From Chthoniobacterales bacterium (GTDB lineage Bacteria; Verrucomicrobiota; Verrucomicrobiia; Chthoniobacterales; JACTMZ01): a stretch of 64,000 nucleotides of DNA. The position numbers and the translations under genes are program-made. Numbering within the stretch: position 1 is the stretch's first letter; each line of letters begins with the position of its first letter. The notes beneath the pieces are model-generated. The model was not told the DNA's origin. It searched no databases and saw nothing but the letters and a program-made list of their open reading frames with translations. The stretch lies in NCBI GenBank assembly GCA_014879535.1, contig JACSRX010000047.1, positions 1 through 64,000 of the forward strand, written 5' to 3'. Positions 1-885 of the stretch are shown piece after piece.

Positions 1-73
1 CTTCTGGCATTTCGCCTGCGGAGCAGGCTCGGATGCCAGAAGCAAGCGGGATAGGTGACTGGGGACGTTGGGC
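1..73 (+). other. Partial integron attC-like site (3' part)
   Basis: The window opens inside a hairpin-forming element. An outer stem pairs 1-10 with 33-42 (CTTCTGGCAT / ATGCCAGAAG) and an inner stem pairs 14-19 with 23-28 (GCCTGC / GCAGGC). It ends with GTTGGGC at 67-73, which fits the integron R' core GTTRRRY. The bases before R' (GGTGACTGGGGAC) resemble the same part of the complete site at 826-885 (GGCTGACCACGGAC). The L'' and R'' arms would lie left of the window, so this is read as the end of the preceding cassette's attC. The call depends largely on the complete site downstream. Confidence 0.55.
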
Positions 74-879
74 AAAAATAAATTAATGAATAAAGAACAC
101 ATAATGGCCGAGATCAAGCGCACAGCCGAGGCCAACAATGGAGTTCCGCTGGGTCGACAGAGATTTCATGCCGAAACAGAAATTAAGAAATCAGATTGGT
201 ATGGTAGATACTGGGCATGTTGGAGTGACGCACTGAGCGAAGCCGGGTTCACACCCAACCAAATGGCTGAAGCCTATTCCTCCACAGAAATAATCGAAAA
301 GTTTGTAGGGCTTATCAGAGAACTCGGCCATATCCCAGTAGATGCAGAGCTGATAATGAAGGCTCGGCAAGATCGAGACTTCCCCAGTCGCACTGTATTT
401 AGCCGTCTCGGACCAAAGCAGAAATTAATTTTAAAAGCGGCAGAATACTGTCAAGAGCACAAAGGTTTTGAAGACATTCTCTCTTTATGCTTAGCCGCAA
501 AGAAATCCGAAAAAACACCCTTACCAGAGGAGTTGCTGCCCAGCATTAAAGTCGGATATGTTTATCTGATCAAACATGGTTCCAGAAAGGAATATAAGAT
601 TGGCAAGACATTCAATCCCCTCCGAAGAGAAGGGGAAATTTCCCTCCAGCTTCCAGAGAAGCTCGAACCCATTCATTACATACAGACGGACGATCCGTCT
701 GGCATCGAAGCCTATTGGCATACACGCTTTGCATCTAAGCGTAAGGAAGGAGAATGGTTTGCTCTTACTTCTTTGGACATTCAAGCATTTAAGAAATGGA
801 AACGCATATATTGAGCGATCCAAAAGCCCAACAAGGTGGTCCAGCCAATGCCGCTACGCGGCATGGCTGACCACGGACG
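68..879 (+). mobile_element. Integron gene cassette (one ORF plus attC)
   Basis: The cassette runs from the recombination point in GTTGGGC (G67/T68) to G879. It holds one ORF that starts 18 bases after the boundary and an attC that begins 11 bases after its stop codon. The cassette start (GTTGGGC) is the exact reverse complement of the R'' box of its own attC (GCCCAAC, 826-832), as expected for a cassette that circularised and inserted as a unit. The ORF is clearly more AT-rich than the rest of the window, which fits horizontal acquisition. Orientation suggests the integrase and attI lie to the left, outside the window. Confidence 0.7.
86..814 (+). CDS. GIY-YIG/T5orf172 (MUG113-type) nuclease-like protein with homing-endonuclease-associated repeats
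   Basis: 242 aa from the ATG at 86; TTG at 68 and ATG at 104 are in-frame alternatives and no clear Shine-Dalgarno decides. The N-terminal half has two copies of a short helical unit of the homing-endonuclease-associated type (around SDWYGRYWACWSDALSEAGF and FPSRTVFSRLG). The C-terminal ~90 residues look like a T5orf172/MUG113 GIY-YIG domain: GYVYLIKHG, then YKIGKT with a downstream Arg, a Glu in GIEAYWHTRF, and GEWFAL near the end. Such proteins are probable DNA-binding endonucleases, but the biological role is not established. It is cargo of an integron cassette with base composition unlike the neighbours, so defence or selfish-element biology is possible (inference). Confidence 0.8.
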   Translation: MNKEHIMAEIKRTAEANNGVPLGRQRFHAETEIKKSDWYGRYWACWSDALSEAGFTPNQMAEAYSSTEIIEKFVGLIRELGHIPVDAELIMKARQDRDFPSRTVFSRLGPKQKLILKAAEYCQEHKGFEDILSLCLAAKKSEKTPLPEELLPSIKVGYVYLIKHGSRKEYKIGKTFNPLRREGEISLQLPEKLEPIHYIQTDDPSGIEAYWHTRFASKRKEGEWFALTSLDIQAFKKWKRIY

Positions 880-885
880 TTCGAG
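826..885 (+). other. Integron attC recombination site
   Basis: R'' is GCCCAAC (826-832, matches RYYYAAC). The left arm 836-854 pairs with the right arm 858-874 (loop TAC 855-857) in a long imperfect stem. There are exactly two unpaired bases, both on the left arm: a C at 841/842 and an A at 847/848. On the folded bottom strand these are an extrahelical G and T, the pattern known for attC recognition by integron integrases. The site ends in GTT (879-881) followed by CGAG, so the R' box is imperfect, as is common where a cassette is followed by non-cassette or decayed DNA. Confidence 0.7.

Follow-up and report, generated by a model that had tools for sequence, protein, structure and literature searches.

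Whether a single hairpin close to the edge of a contig is a true integron recombination site, and which integrase could act on it, is the question raised by the locus described here. The window, a stretch of 64,000 nucleotides whose base 1 is base 1 of contig C21, carries near its start an ORF followed by a 60-bp hairpin (positions 826–885, forward strand), which the initial annotation had read as a complete attC site whose R'' box complements the start of an integron cassette. From the sequence, we conclude that positions 68–879 are very probably a gene cassette of an integron, located distally in a small array on the chromosome, and we assign this reading a probability of about 95%. As a kind, the finding is ordinary, integrons being known in the phylum; the multi-attI layout of the genome is the part worth following.

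The attC site was delimited by sequence reading, folding, a geometry scan, alignment and a covariance model. Direct reading places the R'' box GCCCAAC at 826–832 and two unpaired spacers, AAG (833–835) and GGAC (875–878), on either side of the stem; the R' box GTTCGAG (879–885), assigned by direct reading and R-box comparison, is the distal end of the array in the window contig. The left arm (836–854) and the right arm (858–874), all on the forward strand, were recovered by reading, folding and scanning alike. Along the top strand, the 17-bp stem runs GTGGT/ACCAC, a bulged C (841/842), CAGCC/GGCTG, a bulged A (847/848) and ATGCCGC/GCGGCAT, with the loop TAC. Both bulges lie on the left arm, so that the bottom strand has an extrahelical G and T. 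The cassette start GTTGGGC (67–73), read as its reverse complement, matches the R'' box at 7/7 positions. On re-reading, the site described in the initial annotation was correct to the base, and its stem with just two left-arm bulges, as well as the extrahelical G and T, was reproduced when the bottom strand was folded as DNA.

The terminal GTTCGAG complements R'' only in part, the last R' of the array pairing poorly; this is expected because six R' bases come from whatever sits after the cassette. A separate interpretation of this box, as an insertion at a non-canonical, attG-like site, was considered and dropped as unproven: when R boxes were compared across the attC sites of the genome, R' began most often with GTTCG, and a distal R' always has foreign bases.

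In the bottom-strand DNA fold, the 3' arm of the 17-bp hairpin carries the extrahelical T and G (z = −3.3), and none of 200 shuffles was equally good. A strict geometry scan of the 64-kb window (AAC, spacer, 4–7 bp, bulge, 4–7 bp, bulge, stem, spacer, GTT) picked out the 826–885 site and a single further match, weak and spurious; by chance, 0.05 per 64 kb would be expected in random sequence with matched dinucleotide composition. The covariance-model search that had been suggested as a check also called the site, at 60 bits (E = 2e-14), with the site itself one of the 15 training sequences; because of this training, the geometry scan and the genome-wide regularities serve as the independent tests. 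Rfam contained no model matching the attC site, and hits to a plain R''...R' pattern across the genome were no more numerous than in a reversed control.

The genome (3.17 Mb in 97 contigs, 95.9% complete, 0.37% estimated contamination) supplied nine of the 15 aligned attC sites, and the related genome L028 supplied the other six. Across this alignment, 95.8% of the cells in the predicted stem are paired and no shuffle was as good, while sliding the register by one to three columns lowered pairing to 24–48%; compensatory changes on both sides occur in 14 of the 19 stem pairs. The model built from the 15 sites identified 25 attC sites genome-wide. In selected regions it identified at least 28 full-length sites on 16 contigs, the window site included, together with truncated halves at contig ends. 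The further copies of the motif that the initial annotation had called for were thereby found, in the form of at least 27 other full-length sites. In most consecutive attC pairs, R'' is the exact reverse complement (7/7) of the preceding R', and this match provides independent support because it includes sites on C12, C15, C46 and C83 that were not used for training and the outer four R'' positions are unpaired in the model.

These attC sites are partly alike, with a long type shared by C5, C93 and C19, and partly unlike, varying in terminal structure and in length from 56 to 127 bp. The arrays are short and scattered, and lie on large chromosome-like contigs. In the long sites (L027 1189–2536, L024 17764–17870 and L025 13644–13757), the terminal structure includes a conserved second small hairpin, giving a three-way junction. 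A REP-like palindrome, GGGGCGTGTG...CACACGCCCC, is also dispersed through this genome at contig ends and between genes, with copies at 1234–1257 of the window, near L014 4179–4217 and L015 11467–11505, at the end of L016 and near 50500 of C46.

The window cassette (68–879, forward strand) comprises one ORF and its own attC, and is bounded by the IntI cleavage points G^TT in the R' boxes at 67–73 and 879–885, with the 7/7 R'' match linking its two ends. The window start falls inside the upstream attC, whose right half (1–73, forward strand) is cut by the contig start and ends in the R' box GTTGGGC; the covariance model scored it at 35 bits as a 5'-truncated site. Contig C93, which holds the left attC half, has at its right end a copy of bases 1–68 that is identical over all 68 bp, and these bases recur at the ends of C19 and C1 with 88–90% identity. 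The composite C93–C21 attC, 112 bp long, has a fold of −34 kcal/mol in which both bulges reappear. C21 probably comes after C93, because the attC left arm on C93 can pair with the right arm common to the two contigs, again with these bulges; we therefore infer the join and the array order, in an assembly fragmented into 97 contigs, with C93 as the likely contig to the left of C21. Similarity among attC sites is one stated reason for the breakage of integrons in draft assemblies (PMC9024848). The local order would then be the 5' end of a decayed intI, attI, cassette 1, attC, cassette 2 encoding a GIY-YIG nuclease, attC and chromosome, which would make the window cassette the second cassette of a platform that lost its own integrase. 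Directly past the last attC, positions 909–1181 hold what is left of the C-terminal part of a gene for a PIN-domain toxin, apparently decayed (TIGR00305, 0.0019, below cut-off).

The cassette ORF (86–814, forward strand) encodes 242 aa with a C-terminal GIY-YIG nuclease domain of the MUG113/T5orf172 type, identified by profile search (MUG113, 4e-14, 53 bits against a cut-off of 22; T5orf172, 4e-7, 31 bits against a cut-off of 20). Its N-terminal part shows a weak homing-endonuclease-associated repeat (HNH_repeat, 0.0024, below cut-off). The conserved GIY-YIG residues are present (YVYLIKHG, YKIG, R, EAYWH and GEWF) and are common to two homologs at 43–50% identity. Homologs occur in two other genomes of the 388 sampled, and neither adjoins a recognisable attC. 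The protein matched no anti-phage defence model in PADLOC, nothing in a phage search and no solved structure searched by sequence; a plasmid search returned a single weak match, on a Nostoc plasmid. As a guess, it could be a nuclease directed against foreign DNA. A second cassette of the host (C5:1857–2408) combines helix-turn-helix and GIY-YIG domains, with a borderline score. GIY-YIG cassettes are known from Aeromonas (PMC10609294), where a class 4-like integron carries a cassette for a protein with this nuclease domain; the likeness to the window protein is at the level of the domain description.

A genome search with TIGR02249 (curated cut-off 265 bits) identified two integron integrase genes, at C38:2445–3389 (417 bits) and C70:11562–12503 (399 bits), the latter truncated at its 5' end by the contig end. 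Both retain the complete catalytic R/K/HxxR/H/Y motifs and an RRHH stretch that aligns with Vibrio cholerae IntI4, the closest solved relative (E = 1.7e-82), the match spanning this stretch and the catalytic motifs. Both lie on contigs other than C21. The initial annotation had named an intI to the left of the cassette as the supporting outcome of a search: integron integrases do occur in the same genome, but the likely left neighbour, C93, has a truncated 5' remnant only. At the nucleotide level, the C38 and C70 genes are 51–70% identical over most of their length and about 90% identical in the last 150 or so bases (L014 3220–3379 and the 3' end of L015), a pattern suggestive of gene conversion or recombination between the two at the C-terminal end. 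The C38 integrase also has an N-terminal extension of about 150 residues ahead of the usual integron-integrase domain (L014 1983–2445), and many IntI matches in relatives likewise lie in open frames of 400–500 codons.

Five attI sites were found in the genome, on C38, C93, C83 and C46, and in two end pieces, on C88 and C5, that make up the fifth. The C38 site, which is nearly the same as that of C88/C5, adjoins an intact intI, so that C38 holds a complete integron; it is the only attI seen beside an intact intI. Upstream of the C93 attI only IntI residues 5–76 are left, upstream of the C88 attI lies a frameshifted 5' remnant of intI, and on C83 and C46 no recognisable intI was found upstream of attI. 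In the first cassette after each attI, the attC has an R'' that matches the attI GTTNNNN. The attI core of about 68 bp is conserved and includes a palindrome such as TTGAACAACCGTGTTGTTCAA, which overlaps a promoter-like site facing intI (e.g., L024 17303–17325) and is kept where intI has decayed; it is a candidate operator or integrase-binding element. Taken alone, the window locus is a cassette array lacking its own integrase: there is no intact intI on C21 and only the 5' remnant on C93, and its assignment to an attI depends on the C93–C21 join. Several attI sites in one genome, most of them apart from an intact integrase, are the unusual feature, and presumably they are served in trans. If the at least five platforms, each with a small array, are kept active by the surviving integrases, the chromosome would carry a distributed multi-port system rather than a single array, a proposal that we advance tentatively and rate somewhat short of even odds.

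Site anatomy and strand preference of attC are described in established integron biology (PMC11641012), and by analogy the cassette would move as follows. When the bottom strand becomes single-stranded, attC would fold into its hairpin, which IntI would bind through the extrahelical G and T; IntI would then cut the bottom strand within the R-box AAC, that is, between G and TT in the top-strand reading, and exchange with attI or another attC would insert or excise the cassette, always in the same orientation. With its own intI truncated, the window locus could be active today only through one of the two intact integrases in trans. Such activity would be plausible. Functional IntI is said to mobilise CALINs (attC clusters that have no integrase) in trans (PMC12444791).

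A variant of this explanation, differing from it solely in present activity, is that the array is a former integron now frozen as an immobile CALIN, its intI decayed and neither remaining integrase recognising it. The survival of only IntI residues 5–76 on C93 is in line with this view, and Xanthomonas offers a precedent of intI loss with stable arrays (PMC12444791); the good preservation of attI and attC, the two intact IntI genes in the genome and the trans mobilisation noted above speak the other way. We give the frozen state a substantial minority share of belief. A different doubt concerns the five attI loci, which, rather than being parts of one genome, could stem from different strains or from mis-binned contigs that the assembly has merged. 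The assembly is fragmented and metagenomic-looking, the attI of C38 and C88/C5 are almost identical, and the same attC half lies at the ends of C19 and C1; however, the estimated contamination is 0.37%, the attI loci of C93, C83, C46 and C88 lie in different contigs of 59–103 kb with different flanks, and attI copies compared at full length differ in sequence, so merging appears unlikely. Finally, although hairpins are common after genes and unrelated REP-like palindromes, such as that at 1234–1257, do occur in this genome, a terminator or palindrome at the ORF 3' end that resembles attC by chance has a negligible probability; against it stand the two bulges at fixed spacing, the AAC/GTT boxes, the R'' match to a cassette start 750 bp upstream, the 0.05 occurrences expected per 64 kb, the covariation among homologous sites, and the integrases of the same genome, and it is refuted by the recurrence of this architecture beside IntI and attI.

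The integron system of this genome resembles a sedentary chromosomal integron such as the Vibrio superintegron (IntI4/VCR) in its IntI family, in its order of attI followed by a cassette array, and in its attC hairpins, which have R and L arms, a pair of extrahelical bases and a terminal structure that varies. It differs in that the host, in place of a single long array, has small ones spread over several loci, with attI in more than one copy, and in that its attC sites range in length and terminal structure across 56–127 bp. Like a CALIN as classified by IntegronFinder, the window contig has attC but no intI; unlike one, its probable neighbour keeps attI together with a truncated intI, and the host genome has intact copies of intI elsewhere. 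The integron of L028 is also similar: the best segment of its IntI is 68% identical, its attC sites share the CAGCCAA arm, and one of them is 83% identical to the window attC over 59 positions, whereas L028 yielded 71 attC matches against 25 in the host in the same kind of search, and has one longer array beside intI. L028 (JAAUTS010000001.1) is labelled a 'Blastochloris sp.' SM1_596_0 MAG; its RpoB is 75% identical to that of the host genome, against 53% for a proteobacterium, and the alphaproteobacterial name is probably wrong.

A verrucomicrobial host, as initially proposed, is borne out by RpoB, which is 80–81% identical to that of MAGs named Chthoniobacter, Spartobacteria, Udaeobacter and Verrucomicrobia, against 53–62% in long matched pieces of Nitrospira, Pseudoduganella and Nodosilinea. 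The accompanying remark that such cassettes are little described in this lineage is only partly right: descriptions are scarce in the literature found, yet Verrucomicrobiota were already on the list of integron phyla in a 2021 review (PMC8618304), and of 388 genomes sampled from the phylum, 109 (28%) had IntI above the curated cut-off. Closed genomes of the same class also have intI with attC nearby, for example G140, with 14 sites at 1.29–1.30 Mb and intI at 1.3056 Mb. Taxon-specific attC models exist for other taxa only (PMC8352920).

The bare sequence was sufficient to confirm an isolated 60-bp hairpin at a contig edge as a true attC site. The integron system described here looks functional and belongs to a phylum in whose sampled genomes integrons are common (109/388), although few descriptions were found in the literature. 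If the attI sites lacking an intact intI are indeed kept active in trans, this genome would allow one to examine, in a natural setting, whether selection maintains attI once intI is lost.
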